A stretch of 64,000 bases of DNA from a virus: the IMG/VR virus record IMGVR_UViG_3300005366_000001, positions 1 through 64,000 of that record, one strand, 5' to 3'. Made by a program: the position numbers and the translations under genes. The notes under the pieces are model-generated. The model had not been told where the DNA came from, did no database searches, and was given only the letters and a program-made list of their open reading frames with translations. This document shows, in pieces, positions 4,452 through 45,320 of this stretch. Every line of letters begins with the position of its first letter. Position 1 is the stretch's first letter.

Positions 4452-4793
4452 ATGATGTCAAACCCATTCCGCAAGCCGCAAGTCCAACACTTTGAGTTCG
4501 GACCCGAGTCCGCAAAGCAGATCGAACGGCTCATCAAGGCCGTTAGTGATAACCCACCAATAGGCGAAACCTCCGTCGCGCAGAAGTTGGACGCGATCAT
4601 TGAAATGCTTCGCTCACAAGCGAACGTGGCGGCGGATCTTGCGCTCGTCAAAGAGGAACTGAGCATCGTTCACGGTCTGCTAGACGACTTGGTTAATGCC
4701 GATCCTGAGAAGATTAAGGAATTAGCCGCGAGTGTTAAAGCAGTTCGTGAAAAACTACAAACATCTGTTGATAATCAAACAAAGGAGACTTAA
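4452..4793 (+). CDS. coiled-coil protein
   Basis: This 113-residue protein starts at ATG 4452 or 4455 after GGGAAGAA. Residues 25-110 are heptad-like (IERLIKAVS, LDAIIEML, VKEELSIVHGLLDDL). Proteins of this type near phage tail and lysis genes are often structural or membrane-complex adaptors, but no specific family is recognised. Confidence 0.6.
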   Translation: MMSNPFRKPQVQHFEFGPESAKQIERLIKAVSDNPPIGETSVAQKLDAIIEMLRSQANVAADLALVKEELSIVHGLLDDLVNADPEKIKELAASVKAVREKLQTSVDNQTKET

Positions 4794-4798
4794 ACGAA

Positions 4799-5029
4799 AT
4801 GCCTGCTGACTTTACGCCATTGGTAACTGAGGTTACCGATCTTACCACTGTTGCTGATTCCGCCGTTGCGTTAATGGATGGCTTTGACCAGCGATTGAAA
4901 GACGCTATTGCCGCTGACAATCTCGCAGACGACACGAACGTAGCTAAGCTGTCCGCAGACTTCAGTGCTCAGAAAACCAAGCTGGCTGACGCGGTCACGC
5001 GCAACACGCCCGCAGCGCCAACGACCTGA
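4799..5029 (+). CDS. small acidic helical protein
   Basis: This 76-residue protein is Ala/Asp/Thr-rich, with two predicted amphipathic helices and a Pro/Thr tail. Its composition resembles small virion or coiled-coil proteins. It follows the coiled-coil gene at close spacing. Confidence 0.55.
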   Translation: MPADFTPLVTEVTDLTTVADSAVALMDGFDQRLKDAIAADNLADDTNVAKLSADFSAQKTKLADAVTRNTPAAPTT

Positions 5030-33685: not shown

Positions 33686-33786
33686 GTGATTTTAAGCAGG
33701 AGACAGGTGATCAGCCTGTTTGTCCGCTACCGTGACGGTCTGTTGGGCGCTCCTGCTAAGTCGCCCCGCGGATTTGAACCGCAATC
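33686..33786 (-). ncRNA. antisense tRNA-like/structured RNA cassette A
   Basis: On the minus strand a TATAAT (33798-33793) is followed 7 nt later (G at 33786) by a T-arm: TGCGG, loop TTCAAAT, CCGCG (33783-33767). GGGCGAC follows (33766-33760), which can pair with AGCGCCC (33751-33745) if one A is bulged. Next come a D-like CCGT...GCGG and an arm ACAGG, loop CTGATCA, CCTGT (33719-33703). AGCAGGAG (33757-33750) pairs perfectly with CTCCTGCT (33702-33695), overlapping the first pairing in pseudoknot fashion. The order T-arm, acceptor, D-arm, anticodon-like arm is that of a permuted tRNA, but spacing is less canonical than cassette B. Confidence 0.4.
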
Positions 33787-33801
33787 AAGTTAATTATACC
33801 G

Positions 33802-34302
33802 ATGTCAACCACACTTGCACAACGAATAGTCAGTGAAGCGGAGACGTGGATCGGCACCAGATATCAAGAACAGGGTCGTCTGAAATTCCAAGGCGTTGAC
33901 TGCGTTGGCTTCATTTCCGAAGTCGCCAAAGGCGCTGGCATTAAGACCGTCGTTATTCCGAGTAACTATACGTCGAGCGGCGACGGAACAGTGATGCTTG
34001 GTTTACTTCGTGAACACATGACGATGGTAGCAACCGAAGACATGCAGGCCGGTGACGTCCTGGCCTTTTGCGATCAGGCGCTACAGGAGCCCGATGTGCC
34101 GCGGCATTTGGCATTCGTGCAGGAAGTAACACCAAAGACTGCTTTCATCATTCACAGTTCTGAGCACGGAGTTAGAAGACACCGGATAGATGCGGCGTGG
34201 CGTCGGAGAATTCATTCAGTGTGGAGAATCAAAGAAGACACAGATCCGAAGATTCAAATCGCCCCTAACGCATTTATTCCGTTAGACGCGTTTGTTGAGT
34301 AA
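33802..34302 (+). CDS. NlpC/P60-family tail peptidoglycan peptidase
   Basis: This 166-residue protein has the catalytic Cys in KFQGVDCVGFISEV (about residue 36), a His in PRHLAFVQEV (about residue 106), and a further H/polar pair in FIIHSSEHGV. It follows the DUF2163 gene as in gene transfer agents, where the enzyme sits in the tail tip and cuts wall peptides during entry. There is no ribosome site better than a weak one. It is flanked on both sides by antisense tRNA-like cassettes. Confidence 0.82.
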   Translation: MSTTLAQRIVSEAETWIGTRYQEQGRLKFQGVDCVGFISEVAKGAGIKTVVIPSNYTSSGDGTVMLGLLREHMTMVATEDMQAGDVLAFCDQALQEPDVPRHLAFVQEVTPKTAFIIHSSEHGVRRHRIDAAWRRRIHSVWRIKEDTDPKIQIAPNAFIPLDAFVE

Positions 34303-34316
34303 TCGAATGAGAAACG

Positions 34317-34424
34317 AAAAAAGCAGAGCGTTGGCCCTGCTCTTTCCGGCAGGCGTGTTTGCCGATTTCACCAGATCAGCCGCGCGCAGCCGATCACGGG
34401 ACTTGAACCCGTAGACTCCTGCTC
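34317..34424 (-). tRNA. candidate circularly permuted tRNA-like gene (cassette B)
   Basis: Read leftward from about 34424: GCAGG (34422-34418, positions 39-43), variable AGTCT (34417-34413), T-arm ACGGG TTCAAGT CCCGT (34412-34396), acceptor GATCGGC (34395-34389). A short linker follows, then acceptor GCTGATC (34380-34374), TG at positions 8-9, a 17-nt D-arm GTGAAATCGGCAAACAC (34371-34355), G26 and CCTGC (34353-34349, positions 27-31). Both acceptor strands pair over 7 bp (one G-U; 10 bp with two G-U if extended). CCTGC pairs with GCAGG across the permutation. The G-U pairs are consistent with minus-strand RNA only. A downstream copy of GCAGG (34340-34336) can also close an 8-nt loop CGGAAAGA. 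A terminator with six T ends at 34317. Confidence 0.6.
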
Positions 34425-34430
34425 AATGAA

Positions 34431-34458
34431 ATTATAGACGCATGATCGAAGAACTCAA
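34431..34458 (-). promoter_or_regulatory. promoter for permuted tRNA-like cassette B
   Basis: On the minus strand TTGAGT (34458-34453), a 16-nt spacer and a perfect TATAAT (34436-34431) point at a start near 34424, two bases before the GCAGG that opens the tRNA 3' half. The -35 lies inside the first codons of the rightward tail-tip gene. Confidence 0.6.
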
Positions 34459-37400
34459 AGAGAAATGCCAAGCCCTCGCGATCCGACAGCGCAAGGATCT
34501 CGAAGTGCGCAAGCGCGAAGAACTTGAATCCGCTCTTGAAGAGCACAGGGTTGCCGATCCCTTTAGCAGCACGATCCTGATTGGTCTCTTAGTGTCCTCT
34601 GCCGTTTCTGCGGCCTCCTACCTGATTTCAGCCGCTTTTGCTCCTAAGACTCCCCGTCAACAGCAAGGTAAGCTAACAGGCTCCTTACAACTTCAGAATT
34701 CCGAGCAGGGCATATTCATACCCGAAATCTACGGAGGAAGCCCTACAACGAGTTTGGTTGCCGGGGCTAACCCTACCTACCAGAATCTTGCAAACGTCAC
34801 TTCAGGGGCAAATGGGAGCATAACAAAGACCTCTGGAGGCACAACCTGGAACGCGGGCGCAAGTCATAACGTCGCTATTACGGCCGGGCAGGACGCCTTC
34901 TTTCAATTCACGGTAGGCACCGGGTACGCAACTGCGGGGTTCACGTTAGATTCAAGCCCGACCAGCGGAAATACTGACTTTCTGTTTGCGATTCAATGGA
35001 ACCCGGACGGTTCAATCACAATCAAGTACAACTCAACTCAATTACTCGGGGCTGTAACTACCTACGTGGCGGGCGATGTCTTTCGACTAGAATTGCGATC
35101 TGGCAGATTCAGACTTTACAAAGGTTCGGCTGAGATCGTGCCACCTAACTTTATCTTCCCTTCTCCAAGCTATCCACTCTACATGGGGATTGCCATGCAG
35201 TTTATTGGGGCTGGCATCTCTGCCGGCAAGGTTCAGATCGGATCCATTGGCGCAGCACCGAACTCAGGTCGAGGCGGGATTAAGGTTCCAGCGATCATTA
35301 TTTGGAGTTCGGGAATACGAAAACTAGTCACGACAACTCAAGTCGCCACAGGTGGAGGTAAAGGATTCGGACATCATACGCAGACCGTTGATAACATTAC
35401 TTACAACATCGACCTTGGATTAATGTTTGGGCGTGGCCCGAACAGCCTGATCCGTCTCTATGCCAACGCCGACATCCTGATAGATCAATTCTCTCAATCG
35501 CCTAATCCCTCGGGCGTTTACGATCCGACTGTTGGCCCTGATCCTGATTACGATCCGAAATTACCGCCTGACCCAACACTGAATCACATGCCGTCATTCT
35601 TGCGCATCGATGGAGACATTCCATTCGACGGTGACAATGTAGGCACGGGAACAATTCAGGGCGGTGGGTCTGGCTTTGCAATTTATCCCGGCAATAACAC
35701 TCAGCAACCCGATCCAACGATTGAAGCCGACATAGATGGAAAATTTGGAGCGGGATCTACGCCTGCCTATCGGAACCATTCTTTAACAGTGCTCTCAACT
35801 CTGTCGTTGTCACGCTGGGGTGGCGTCGTTCCTAACATTACTGGAGTTTGGGAACATGAGACCTTCAGAACGCTTGATTTGATCTACGCCTCGTTATGCG
35901 ATCGCGTGGGACTATCAAGTACCGATTACGACTTCTCGGATATTGAAATCGCATCCCGCGGCTTATTGATTTCCGGCCGTCCCTTTCAGCCAAAAGAGAT
36001 TATCGGCTCTCCCGATCTGCAACTGGCCTATAACTACTTCGTCACTGAAGCGGATGGTCAGATTGTTGGTTACACCGAAGGCAACGAACCGTCCATCACT
36101 ATTCCTGATACAGAGATTGGATGGCTTGAAGGCGATGCGGATTTACCAGACATCGCGCCAGAAGTCGAGTCGATGATAGCTTCTGAAATCAGTCTCCCGC
36201 GCGAGGTGCATGTCAAGTCACTGGATCCTGACAAAGACTGGGAACCAAATACGGCGAGCGCAATGAGACAGATCACCGATGGCTCGAAAGTCGAATTACT
36301 GGAAATTCAGATCTGCCAATTATCGGATGAGCGCAGAGAAACTGCACAGCGAAAACTCTATCGTGACTATGTAGCTGGAACTGCTCACAAATTCACTCTC
36401 CCGTGGACCTATCTCTATTTGCATCCCGGTTACAAGATCACAATTACCCGAGCTGAAGGCTTCACGCATGTAATGAGGCTGACTTCTATTTCTGGAGGGA
36501 TCGGAATTCTTGAGTGTGAAGGGATCGCGTTAGAGCCTGAGACATTTAATCAACCCGCAAATGGAGTCTTTCCGCCCGGTTACATTCCACCACAACCTAT
36601 CCCTGCAATGATCGTTATGTCGATGATTGACTTGCCTCTATTCCGTGAGGCTGACGCAGGTAAACTAGGCTTTTATGCAGGCGGCACACCGCGCACAGGC
36701 GTTAATCAATCGTTTCAAGGATGGACCTTACAGTCCCAACGTAATAGCGTTTGGTCTTTACGAGCATCCTCAAACCTCCCTGCAACCATCGGGGCGGTTG
36801 TCAGCGCCACTGCCCTATCAGACGATCCCACTACGTTTGATAATGTCGGTACGATTACGATCGATCTCTACGGCACCGACATGACCCTTTCATCCGTGAC
36901 TGAGGCGGATGTTTTAGTGGGTATAAACAAGTCCGCGATCAAGGACTTCATATGTGGGTTTAAAACCGCGACTCAGGTTGCGGGCTTTCCGAATCGATGG
37001 ACACTCAGCGGGCTACTGAACGGACTGCACGAAACGTCCACACAAGTTGCCGGCGATTTAACCGGAGCAAGGTTTGTATTACTCGATCAAGCTGTAGTCT
37101 TTGTTCCCACTACCGAAGATGAACTAAACCTACTACTTGATTACCGCGGGGTTGCTAATGGACAATCTTTAGGCGATGCGGCCACGTTTGAATTTGCGTG
37201 GACCGGGCAGATCCTGAAACCCGAGCGGCCAACCTCAATCGATGGCCAATTCGATCTAGCCGATGGCTCTCTGTTGGCCGAATGGGAGAATGAGATCTTC
37301 CTAACCGCCGATGATACTTACGACTTCATTGTCAGAAGTGCGGCGGATGGTGGCGGCTCAGTACTGTTTGGGCCGATTGAAATTAAGCCTTTGGATTTAG

Positions 37401-38155
37401 CGAGAGTATCCAACACACCGCCACTGTTAGCGATAGAACCTTCGAGTGATTATCTACCGCTAACCGCATATACATATGTTGTGCCCGGTGGCTTTGACGC
37501 GACTTATACCAAAGCACAATGGAATGGCACTATCACTCTTCCTTTGATTTCCGACGTCACGATTGCTGACAACTTCACGGTCCGGGGAGGCGCATTTCTC
37601 GAAATGCAAGTTCCCGATGCGTTCGATCCGCTTAACAATACTCTGGTTCCATCGACTTTCGGATTCATTCAGAAAGTGGCTGCTACTGTGTTTGCTTCGT
37701 GGTTATTTGATCGGGAGCTGACCGAAGTTGGCTTGCCAGTAACCGCGCGCCCAATTGATGCTGTAGGGAGCGATTTCGATTACACAATCAGTTCGCGCGA
37801 TCGATTCTCTATTCACATTCAACCAGACGGTACAGTGACCTTTTACATTAACTATCAAGGCGCGATGTCCGAGCCTTGGTACATCTCGCCTAATCGAGTT
37901 GATGTAACAGTTCTGCACCGTGCTTACTATCTAAATGAGCCGGGCTATGAAATCGCTGGAAGCACGCTCACAATTGGCGCTCGCAACACACGCTTGCTTC
38001 GCAACGTGCCTGAATTCCGATACCCCGGCGATGAGCAAAGGAGTCACAATTCAGGATCGTTACCAGCCGCAGTCCATGTAGGCGTGCGCAGGCGATCATC
38101 GCATCCGCTTGGACCACCGAGCGACTGGTTATACGCTACATTTACGAGACCATAA
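34442..38155 (+). CDS. tail tip / host-specificity protein (GTA/J-like)
   Basis: This 1237-residue protein begins with a charged coiled coil, then a hydrophobic segment (about residues 42-66, LIGLLVSSAVSAASYLISAA) as in the J-like tail-tip proteins. The central part contains the Phage-tail_3-like stretch (TFRTLDLIYASLCDRVGLSS, EPSITIPDTEIGW). A lectin-like insertion (about residues 110-280) and fibronectin/Ig-like C-terminal domains follow. It probably forms the central spike contacting the receptor. It is preceded by the NlpC/P60 gene as in gene transfer agents. Confidence 0.8.
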   Translation: MIEELKEKCQALAIRQRKDLEVRKREELESALEEHRVADPFSSTILIGLLVSSAVSAASYLISAAFAPKTPRQQQGKLTGSLQLQNSEQGIFIPEIYGGSPTTSLVAGANPTYQNLANVTSGANGSITKTSGGTTWNAGASHNVAITAGQDAFFQFTVGTGYATAGFTLDSSPTSGNTDFLFAIQWNPDGSITIKYNSTQLLGAVTTYVAGDVFRLELRSGRFRLYKGSAEIVPPNFIFPSPSYPLYMGIAMQFIGAGISAGKVQIGSIGAAPNSGRGGIKVPAIIIWSSGIRKLVTTTQVATGGGKGFGHHTQTVDNITYNIDLGLMFGRGPNSLIRLYANADILIDQFSQSPNPSGVYDPTVGPDPDYDPKLPPDPTLNHMPSFLRIDGDIPFDGDNVGTGTIQGGGSGFAIYPGNNTQQPDPTIEADIDGKFGAGSTPAYRNHSLTVLSTLSLSRWGGVVPNITGVWEHETFRTLDLIYASLCDRVGLSSTDYDFSDIEIASRGLLISGRPFQPKEIIGSPDLQLAYNYFVTEADGQIVGYTEGNEPSITIPDTEIGWLEGDADLPDIAPEVESMIASEISLPREVHVKSLDPDKDWEPNTASAMRQITDGSKVELLEIQICQLSDERRETAQRKLYRDYVAGTAHKFTLPWTYLYLHPGYKITITRAEGFTHVMRLTSISGGIGILECEGIALEPETFNQPANGVFPPGYIPPQPIPAMIVMSMIDLPLFREADAGKLGFYAGGTPRTGVNQSFQGWTLQSQRNSVWSLRASSNLPATIGAVVSATALSDDPTTFDNVGTITIDLYGTDMTLSSVTEADVLVGINKSAIKDFICGFKTATQVAGFPNRWTLSGLLNGLHETSTQVAGDLTGARFVLLDQAVVFVPTTEDELNLLLDYRGVANGQSLGDAATFEFAWTGQILKPERPTSIDGQFDLADGSLLAEWENEIFLTADDTYDFIVRSAADGGGSVLFGPIEIKPLDLARVSNTPPLLAIEPSSDYLPLTAYTYVVPGGFDATYTKAQWNGTITLPLISDVTIADNFTVRGGAFLEMQVPDAFDPLNNTLVPSTFGFIQKVAATVFASWLFDRELTEVGLPVTARPIDAVGSDFDYTISSRDRFSIHIQPDGTVTFYINYQGAMSEPWYISPNRVDVTVLHRAYYLNEPGYEIAGSTLTIGARNTRLLRNVPEFRYPGDEQRSHNSGSLPAAVHVGVRRRSSHPLGPPSDWLYATFTRP

Positions 38156-42652: not shown

Positions 42653-43792
42653 TCATGCTACACGGCGGTTACTATCGTTAAGGCTGGGTTTATAGCCCCA
42701 GCCATCGGTTAAGGCTGAATCCGAAATCAGGTGTCTAACCTTAACGAGTAAGTCTCTATACTGAGAGTAGGGGATCTCGCCTCGGTATTGCAGTTGGCCC
42801 ACAACAATTCCCGCGTTGGCGTTCTTTAGCTCTGCAAAGGCTTTAATCTTGCGCTTGGAGTAAAGCGGCCTAACACGAGCTATAAAGTTTTCTAAGTCCG
42901 CTTTCTTTACAGCAAACTCAGCCGCAAAAAGATCGGCTCGCTTTTCCATTTCCGGCTTGTCATTCATGTACTTGGCGTCCTCGCCGACAAGGTTTAAATC
43001 CAGGATCGGATTGTCTTGTCCCTCATGGTGCTTAACGTGGTGCATTTCATGTAAGAGCGTGTGCCAAAACCCATCTATCCGATCTAATCGTTGCGAAAGA
43101 CCGATCACAGGTGAGGTTCTATCTAGCCATGTACAAACGCCATCAATTCGCGTTGTCGGCAAAGCCTCAACTAAAACAAATCGAATACCGCTCTCCGAGA
43201 GAATACGCGGCACATGCCTGACTTCTTCAGGATCGCGCATCAACGGACGCAAGTTTTCCAGTGCCTCGTTGCAACGACGATCCGTGTATTTAACAGCAGG
43301 AACATATTGAGCCAATTGACGCACGCGAACCATCCACGCGACTTGCGCCGAAGTTGCTTCCATTTCAGACGCCGACTTTCTCGCCGCAAAATTGATCTTT
43401 GGCTGCTCTTCCATTGAGGCAATCCCTAAGAACTTGCAGATCCGTTCCTCTAACAAGCCCATGTCGGCGCTCGGCTCAATCCAGCCCCGTTTGATCATGT
43501 CTTTGACCGGATAGTTTTCATAAAGCCGAAGCCGTTGGGTTACGCCCCCGTTATCGTGCTCAAGTTTCGTTAGGCGATAAGCGGCCTCTAACGCAAGCCA
43601 GTATTCGGCTGTATTACCTAGTGCGGTTGCTAACCCCTGAGCAACCTCAGGATTAATCGGCTTTGTGCCAGCCACTAAGCCGCTGACCTCGGAAGGGTGG
43701 CGTCCGAGGATGAACGCTAGATCGCGTTGCTCCCAGCCGCGACGCTCTAGTTCTTCCTTTATTACTGAACCGGGAATAATGATCTCACTCAT
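42653..43792 (-). CDS. HTH (HigA-type) plus ImmA/IrrE metallopeptidase
   Basis: This 379-residue protein has an XRE helix-turn-helix (about residues 8-65: RRGWEQRDLAFILGRHPSEV) and a C-terminal zinc metalloprotease with LLHEMHHVKHH (HExxH, about residue 243) and a following E-rich helix. ImmA/IrrE proteins cleave repressors to induce mobile elements, and HigA-type HTHs bind operators. A fused protein could be both sensor and regulator. AAAGGAGG precedes the ATG, and a 36-bp palindrome lies upstream. Confidence 0.82.
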   Translation of the reverse strand: MSEIIIPGSVIKEELERRGWEQRDLAFILGRHPSEVSGLVAGTKPINPEVAQGLATALGNTAEYWLALEAAYRLTKLEHDNGGVTQRLRLYENYPVKDMIKRGWIEPSADMGLLEERICKFLGIASMEEQPKINFAARKSASEMEATSAQVAWMVRVRQLAQYVPAVKYTDRRCNEALENLRPLMRDPEEVRHVPRILSESGIRFVLVEALPTTRIDGVCTWLDRTSPVIGLSQRLDRIDGFWHTLLHEMHHVKHHEGQDNPILDLNLVGEDAKYMNDKPEMEKRADLFAAEFAVKKADLENFIARVRPLYSKRKIKAFAELKNANAGIVVGQLQYRGEIPYSQYRDLLVKVRHLISDSALTDGWGYKPSLNDSNRRVA

Positions 43793-43929: not shown

Positions 43930-44063
43930 TCCGGCATCGAAAAAGCCCTGCCAGTTGCTTGTAACAACCGACAGGGCCATTGAAAATCAAACGCGATTGC
44001 TCACGAGTGACTTCCAGCGACTTCATTGTGAGCCATCGCCTAACCAAAAGGCAAGAGGACACA

Positions 44064-45320
44064 ATGACACTGACAGACCGCCAGATCACTGACCGCGAAA
44101 TCAAAGCACTCCAGATCGCCGCTAAGACTCAACTGAAACGCAAAGGCAAAAGCAACGTGTGGTTGGTTCCATCGCAAGCGGGCCACGGCGAATATGAAGT
44201 CCGCCCCGATCCGCAAGCGCCGCGATGCACATGCCCTGACTACGAATTCAGAAACGCTCGCTGCAAACATATCGTTGCGGTCGAATACGTTTTGATGCGC
44301 GAACAGAAACCGGATGGCAGCACGGTTGTCACCGAGACAGTGAAGGTCACGCGACAGACTTATTCGCAGAATTGGAAAGCCTACAACTACAGCCAAACGC
44401 ACGAGAAATCAGAACTGCAAGCGTTGCTGTATGAACTCTGCAAAAACATTCCTGAATCTGAGAAACCAAGAGGCAAGGGCAGACCGTCGCTATCGTTGCC
44501 GGACATCATTTTCTCCAGCGTGACGAAAATCTATAGCACGATCTCAGGGCGACGCTTTGACACGGATCTCCGCGACGCAAAGGCGCGTGGCTATCTGATG
44601 CGACTGCCGCATTACAATTCAGTGTTTCGTTATCTCGAATCAGAAGCATTGACACCTTACCTCTACGAACTGATTACGCTGAGCGCAGCGCCGCTCAAAT
44701 CGATTGAATCAGACTTTGCGGTTGATAGTTCAGGATTCAGCACCGGACAGTTTATGCGCTGGCTGGATGTCAAATACGGCACTAAGGAAGATCGTCGCCA
44801 GTGGCTCAAGCTACACTTAATGGTGGGCGTCAAAACGAACATCGTCACGAGCGTTGAAGTCAGCGACGGTTATGCACATGATTATCCGTTCTACAAAGGT
44901 TTGGTTGATCGCACGGCTGACAGTGGATTCAAGATGAAAGAGGTAAGCGCAGACAAGGGCTATCTCGGTGCAACGAACATGCTGGCGACGCTGCAACGCG
45001 GCGCGATCCCTTACATTCCATTCAAATCGAATTCAGTGCCGGACTCACGCGGAAGCTATGGCCCTAAATCAGAACTTTGGACGCGCATGTATCACTTTTA
45101 CGCGCTCCATCGTGCAGAGTTTCTACAGCACTATCACAAGCGGTCCAACATCGAAACAACCTTCCATATGATCAAGGCGAAGTTCGGTCAACGGCTGCGA
45201 AGTCGAACACTCACGGCACAGATTAACGAGGCTCTTTGTAAGGTACTTTGTCATAACCTCTGCGTGGTGATCCAGTCCGTGCATGAACTAGGGATTGAAA
45301 CAAACTTCGAGGCAGCGTGA
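44064..45320 (+). CDS. SWIM-finger DDE transposase
   Basis: This 418-residue protein starts at ATG 44064 after GAGGAC. An N-terminal SWIM finger (CTCPDYEFRNARCKHIVAVEY: CxC...CxH) precedes an IS4/IS5-type DDE catalytic domain: FAVDSSGF (D), VSADKGYLG (D) and RSNIETTFHMIKAKFG (E). All three catalytic acids are present. No terminal inverted repeats or target duplication are visible at the flanks, and the right flank is only 21 bp from the next stop, so it may be a domesticated or degraded insertion sequence rather than a fresh one. Confidence 0.8.
   Translation: MTLTDRQITDREIKALQIAAKTQLKRKGKSNVWLVPSQAGHGEYEVRPDPQAPRCTCPDYEFRNARCKHIVAVEYVLMREQKPDGSTVVTETVKVTRQTYSQNWKAYNYSQTHEKSELQALLYELCKNIPESEKPRGKGRPSLSLPDIIFSSVTKIYSTISGRRFDTDLRDAKARGYLMRLPHYNSVFRYLESEALTPYLYELITLSAAPLKSIESDFAVDSSGFSTGQFMRWLDVKYGTKEDRRQWLKLHLMVGVKTNIVTSVEVSDGYAHDYPFYKGLVDRTADSGFKMKEVSADKGYLGATNMLATLQRGAIPYIPFKSNSVPDSRGSYGPKSELWTRMYHFYALHRAEFLQHYHKRSNIETTFHMIKAKFGQRLRSRTLTAQINEALCKVLCHNLCVVIQSVHELGIETNFEAA

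Follow-up and report, generated by a model that had tools for sequence, protein, structure and literature searches.

A permuted tRNA-like RNA between promoter- and terminator-like signals in a phage tail module: a candidate tRNA decoy

A predicted small RNA gene between two tail genes

The stretch of DNA analysed here, which we call the window, comprises 64,000 nucleotides of a phage genome (IMG/VR record IMGVR_UViG_3300005366_000001, positions 1 to 64,000). In its tail module a gap of 139 nt separates an NlpC/P60-like gene (33802-34302) from a gene for a 1237-aa tail protein (34442-38155), and most of this gap, in a module that is otherwise tightly packed, is taken up by a predicted small RNA gene lying antisense to both neighbours. 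A second gap between tail genes, of 116 nt (33686-33801), is found just upstream of this region. Elsewhere the window contains two ORFs (43980-45320 and 56658-57701) that match the phage transposase families phrog_2262 and phrog_506, together with a homologue of transcriptional regulators (42653-43792), and because of these the phage may be temperate or transposable.

The features of the RNA gene are collected in Table 1. The -35 element (34458-34453) and the -10 element (34436-34431) together agree with a sigma70-like promoter at 10 of 12 positions. From the position of the -10 element we infer a transcription start at about 34424, and the complete permuted tRNA begins 1-2 nt past this expected start, while the terminator follows directly upon the CCTGC strand at the other end.

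Table 1. Features of the predicted small RNA gene, in window coordinates
Feature	Position	Strand	Basis
Sigma70-like promoter, TTGAGT-16-TATAAT	34431..34458	-	Signal match; TATAAT also in the related locus L124
Predicted sRNA, ~108 nt	34317..34424	-	Start estimated from the -10 element, end from the run of T
End-closing stem, RNA 5' strand (anticodon-stem 3' strand), GCAGG	34418..34422	-	Fold
5-nt variable loop, AGTCT	34413..34417	-	
T arm, ACGGG-TTCAAGT-CCCGT	34396..34412	-	Model R1; local RF00005 match 46-63
Closed acceptor hairpin, GATCGGC-tgcgcgcg-GCTGATC	34374..34395	-	Fold and model R1
Positions 8-9 (TG, 34373-34372) and Leu-type D arm, GTG-AAATCGGCAAA-CAC (34371-34355)	34355..34373	-	Model R1
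End-closing stem, RNA 3' strand (anticodon-stem 5' strand), CCTGC	34349..34353	-	Fold
Intrinsic terminator, 15-pair stem, CAAC loop, T6	34315..34348	-	Sequence and RNAfold fold

The minimum-energy structure that RNAfold gives for the linear transcript is the permuted cloverleaf followed by the terminator. The two acceptor strands (34395-34389 and 34380-34374) form 7 bp including one G-U pair, and in the folded model this helix grows to 9 bp with a CGCG loop. A single G lies between the CAC of the D arm and the CCTGC strand, and the D-arm stretch is the same as that of a real tRNA-Leu in another locus of our collection (L273). Compared with shuffled sequences the whole RNA has a stability z-score of -2.7, which becomes only mild, at -1.2 to -1.4, when the terminator is left out. 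The minus strand is favoured, since both the acceptor and the terminator helix contain G-U pairs, which would not pair if the complementary strand were transcribed. A first-pass annotation of the locus had proposed a minus-strand order of 3' half then 5' half, a 7-bp acceptor whose G-U pair favours that strand, and a TATAAT promoter and a hairpin with six T belonging to the RNA itself; every one of these elements was recovered in our analysis.

Detection and distribution of the RNA

We searched 2.4 Mb of phage loci with a custom finder for the permuted order. This gave 52 entries, with a single RNA accounting for the window and for six loci of the same virus; the window yields one match, and 60 Markov-chain windows yield none. 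We also built a covariance model, R1, whose 30 permuted modules come from phages and bacteria and exclude both the window and its copies. The window RNA scores 52.7 bits with this model (E 5e-12), the next place in the 64 kb reaching 11.6 bits, and because the model is independent of the window we can set chance aside. The finder selects for acceptor pairing, so that covariation in the acceptor helix of the R1 rows is partly built in. Model R1 also scores ordinary tandem tRNA arrays, which leaves the window result untouched because the window has no tRNAs.

Conventional searches behave as expected for a permuted form: ARAGORN reports nothing in the undoubled window, and neither ARAGORN nor RF00005 finds a tRNA over the contig. 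Once the stretch is doubled ARAGORN does call a tRNA. In a search of 171 bases (34300-34470) the weak RF00005 match is confined to the T arm. At the level of the sequence, then, the presence on the minus strand of a permuted tRNA-like RNA with promoter- and terminator-like signals is confirmed.

The same 171-base search returned a match to the SorX family (RF02784, 23.3 bits, E 0.0008), as would be seen if the locus encoded an ordinary SorX-like sRNA of alphaproteobacterial type, acting in trans, or were a mere terminator. This score is, however, half the gathering score of the family (46.6), it rests on the terminator hairpin and CCTG..GGA, and RF02784 is not listed in a 3-kb search. Moreover, the tRNA elbow would be left unexplained. 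We therefore rejected the match as driven by the terminator and hold this explanation to be highly improbable.

The RNA occurs in four contigs, namely the window and three others that are 100% identical to it over the shared stretch. No divergent homologue was found, so that neither covariation nor purifying selection can be adduced, and this is the chief weakness of the case. Annotated phages contain no exact or near relatives, a scan specific for the D arm returned the same virus and, apart from it, a single ordinary tandem tRNA-Leu, and a query with the NlpC protein recovered only the same virus. Three loci found through related tail proteins (L124, L125 and L126) lack the RNA. The first of these is a near relative, with about 88% DNA identity, whose alignment to the window breaks between 33826 and 34429, so that the NlpC gene and the RNA lie within a mosaic block. 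At the place of the RNA, L124 carries a different minus-strand ORF of 67 aa (4780-4983 of that locus) behind the same TATAAT. From this arrangement we suspect a moron site whose content can be exchanged behind a leftward promoter that stays in place.

Such a distribution invites the thought that the RNA is a functionless relic of a Y RNA or of a tRNA array, a piece of which was captured by recombination. Its occurrence is sporadic, the stretch 33826-34429 is a mosaic not alignable to L124, and there are no homologues of the same form. No pair of the fold is broken, however, the well-formed promoter and terminator match the RNA ends exactly, and most of the 139-nt gap in a tightly packed module is filled. 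We thus regard the relic as unlikely.

Permuted tRNA genes, Y RNAs and related RNAs in other phages

Is the RNA then a working tRNA? The first-pass annotation described it as a circularly permuted tRNA-like gene. To give a working tRNA, the ends of such an RNA would be joined at the anticodon loop, the acceptor loop excised and CCA added. The canonical parts on which this description drew are indeed there, as a complete cloverleaf with canonical arm lengths, and doubling the sequence leads ARAGORN to call a tRNA; a canonical anticodon loop, however, cannot be formed by the residues at the break. The joined loop would have CGG... on one side and ...CATTGA on the other, and no 7-nt combination tried by hand among the residues inspected (34348-34341 and 34430-34423) contains U33. 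CCA is not encoded, a 5-nt variable loop is combined with a Leu-type D arm, the RNA ends pair together, and the terminator comes at once. The circularly permuted tRNA genes of algae and archaea have a BHB motif at the junction and mature via a circle to charged tRNAs (PMC3978253), whereas no BHB-like junction is found here, the sole helix at that place being the end stem. RtcB and RNA ligase (RNA_ligase) are absent from the contig itself. We consider a genuine permuted tRNA gene very unlikely. The missing U33, the missing CCA and the sealed acceptor exclude a tRNA and not a mimic, and for this reason a mimic fits better; the further suggestion in the first-pass annotation that the closed acceptor might make the RNA a mimic or decoy thereby gains support from the sealed hairpin and from an architecture resembling that of the bacterial Y RNA YrlA. 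We rejected an attP copy of a host tRNA, since the locus lies in the tail module and has the two tRNA halves, permuted.

Permuted tRNA-like RNAs with a sealed acceptor turn out to be common in our scans of IMG/VR and GTDB genomes. Within the set of papers searched, no report of permuted tRNAs in phages was found; the earlier belief that phages offer no precedent nevertheless has to be given up, since these RNAs are frequent in phage contigs and YrlA has already been reported in several phages (PMC7765460). In an alphaproteobacterium (L284) two RNAs match the YrlA family RF02553 at 75.3 and 61.0 bits, with a cut-off of 69, and the permuted module of the RNA above the cut-off is one row of model R1. 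Among phage RNAs with a TTACT-TC flank, a TROVE/Ro60 protein is encoded in all eight contigs listed (L179, L190, L209, L221, L229, L233, L241 and L261) as well as in L323, L325 and L327, from which it follows that phages do carry Y RNAs. Those of this type that were scored fall below the RF02553 cut-off, so that phage members are missed by the family model. Two further loci, L181 and L266, have a similar flank, and TROVE was not found in their contigs. RNAs with an ACAGCAA flank form a second set, from phages that have large genomes and no TROVE; Erwinia phage pEa_SNUABM_49 and Cronobacter phage GAP32 are among these, and there the RNAs are unannotated.

Several unannotated permuted tRNA-like RNAs also lie in phage tRNA regions, several of them from jumbo phages: L047 (1150-1700), L276 (3087-3144 and 3867-3922; MW879344) and L277 (4446-4501; JN882285), with further examples in L009, L030, L039, L103, L118 and L324. 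The isotype-like D arms of these RNAs differ, and a short helix, which has (T)TACAGCAA on the 5' side, encloses each RNA. Against the YrlA model, with its cut-off of 69, their scores reach 35-49 bits, in genomes without a TROVE gene. We had considered the flanking helices of the other permuted RNAs as small introns, an idea that was dropped after the YrlA match and the TROVE genes came to light, the ACAGCAA type excepted; in the permuted phage loci no group I intron or other Rfam family was found, tRNA being the only family at gathering thresholds. Nine loci, mostly from Bacteroidota (L281, L290, L292, L296, L297, L304, L311, L312 and L314), contain tRNA-like units arranged in strings, such that the acceptor 3' strand of one unit pairs with the acceptor 5' strand of the next through a loop of 4-8 nt, with weak YrlA matches in some, and in L087 (7500-7700) a permuted Leu-type tRNA apparently sits inside the anticodon loop of another tRNA-like sequence. 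Phages thus hold many unannotated permuted tRNA-like RNAs, some in contigs that also encode Ro60, which tRNA finders miss or misread. None of the others that we saw has just the short stem plus terminator of the window RNA, and scans for poly-T patterns revealed no other minimal mimic of this form.

The nearest described family is the tRNA mimic of the Y RNAs rather than the permuted tRNAs of algae and archaea with which the locus had been compared. YrlA, a bacterial Y RNA, contains a module imitating the D, T and acceptor arms of tRNA, to which PNPase binds and which DusA and TruB modify; the Ro60 homologue Rsr is bound by the basal stem, and YrlA tethers PNPase (PMC8394870). The window RNA has the module order of the YrlA type (T arm, closed acceptor arm, D arm), as its score with model R1 reflects. 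One could accordingly imagine a reduced Y RNA that retains its function with an Rsr (Ro60) protein encoded by the host, or that tethers PNPase. The tRNA-mimic architecture is identical in order, and there exist YrlA-related RNAs of jumbo phages without TROVE in their own genome, that of GAP32 scoring 44.7 bits over the whole model. On the other hand no paired Ro-binding motif (GNCGAA(N)G / CTTGNC) surrounds the module, the end stem has just 5-7 bp, and RF02553 gives no match at E<=10, whether over the virus's own genome, at 33-36 kb or at 34300-34470. A TROVE/Rsr gene (PF05731) is absent from the 65.4-kb contig, which may be incomplete. A reduced Y RNA of this kind seems to us improbable. Judged by its sequence and predicted fold, the window RNA falls short of a full Y RNA and is a tRNA mimic built to the plan of the YrlA module.

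A possible stand-alone tRNA decoy

On balance we favour a stand-alone phage small RNA that imitates tRNA and is likely a decoy rather than a working tRNA. The analysis shows the sequence, its predicted fold, the promoter- and terminator-like signals and the kinship of architecture, and from them we infer the transcription, stability, decoy action and target that the following picture entails. A promoter of its own in the tail module would drive leftward transcription of the RNA, and its own hairpin would end it. The RNA would fold into a tRNA elbow of D arm and T arm, with the acceptor helix sealed by a tetraloop and the anticodon stem built from the RNA's own two ends, an architecture that would amount to the tRNA-mimic module of a Y RNA stripped of its Ro60/Rsr-binding stem. 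Because the acceptor is sealed and the anticodon stem consists of the ends, such an RNA should be neither charged, nor read, nor cut in the anticodon loop. A stable RNA of this kind would present to the host the elbow of a tRNA whose acceptor end is dead and whose anticodon loop is missing. Acting in trans, it would most likely occupy, without turnover, a host protein that grips tRNA by the elbow and the acceptor stem. Candidate targets are an anticodon nuclease of a defence system, PNPase, and enzymes that process or modify tRNA, with RNase P as an alternative, and the gain for the phage would be protection against defences that cut tRNA.

Wolin and colleagues found that the YrlA mimic is not cut by a tRNA anticodon nuclease acting after DNA damage, and proposed it as a competitive inhibitor of that nuclease (PMC7790460). 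The specific proposal that the window RNA is a free-standing mimic of the cut-down Y RNA type, protecting the phage because it titrates away a tRNA-recognising nuclease or sensor of the host, is one we advance only tentatively and would not ourselves expect to be correct in this form. If it were true, such a titrating mimic would do as an RNA what protein mimics do, and would stand beside the solitary-repeat RNA anti-CRISPRs. More generally, a phage RNA that keeps just the tRNA-like part of a Y RNA isolates the module, making its use directly testable, for instance in blocking an anticodon nuclease.

It remains to set the window RNA beside known systems. Like YrlA, it runs from T arm through sealed acceptor hairpin to D arm and is closed by a stem of the RNA ends, and the two are similar in size (~110 nt, against 90-150 nt for YrlA; PMC8394870); it differs in having no Ro60/Rsr-binding basal stem, a Leu-type D arm, and a terminator directly after the end stem. 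With the circularly permuted tRNA genes of red and green algae and some archaea it shares the 3' half placed before the 5' half and a break in the anticodon region, but it has no splice motif, no U33 and no CCA, and its acceptor is sealed by a tetraloop. Permuted, two-piece tmRNA has a similar permuted order with a segment linking the acceptor strands, whereas the window RNA has a real D stem and no tag-coding part; tmRNA (RF00023) gives no match at 33-36 kb or at 34300-34470, and there is no room for a tag reading frame. Solitary-repeat RNA anti-CRISPRs are phage decoys that mimic the crRNA repeat and have their own promoter, and their action has been shown. The window RNA would likewise be a stand-alone, shortened RNA of host type that has its own promoter and ties up a host protein, but it imitates tRNA rather than a crRNA repeat, and here the decoy action is what its architecture leads us to propose.
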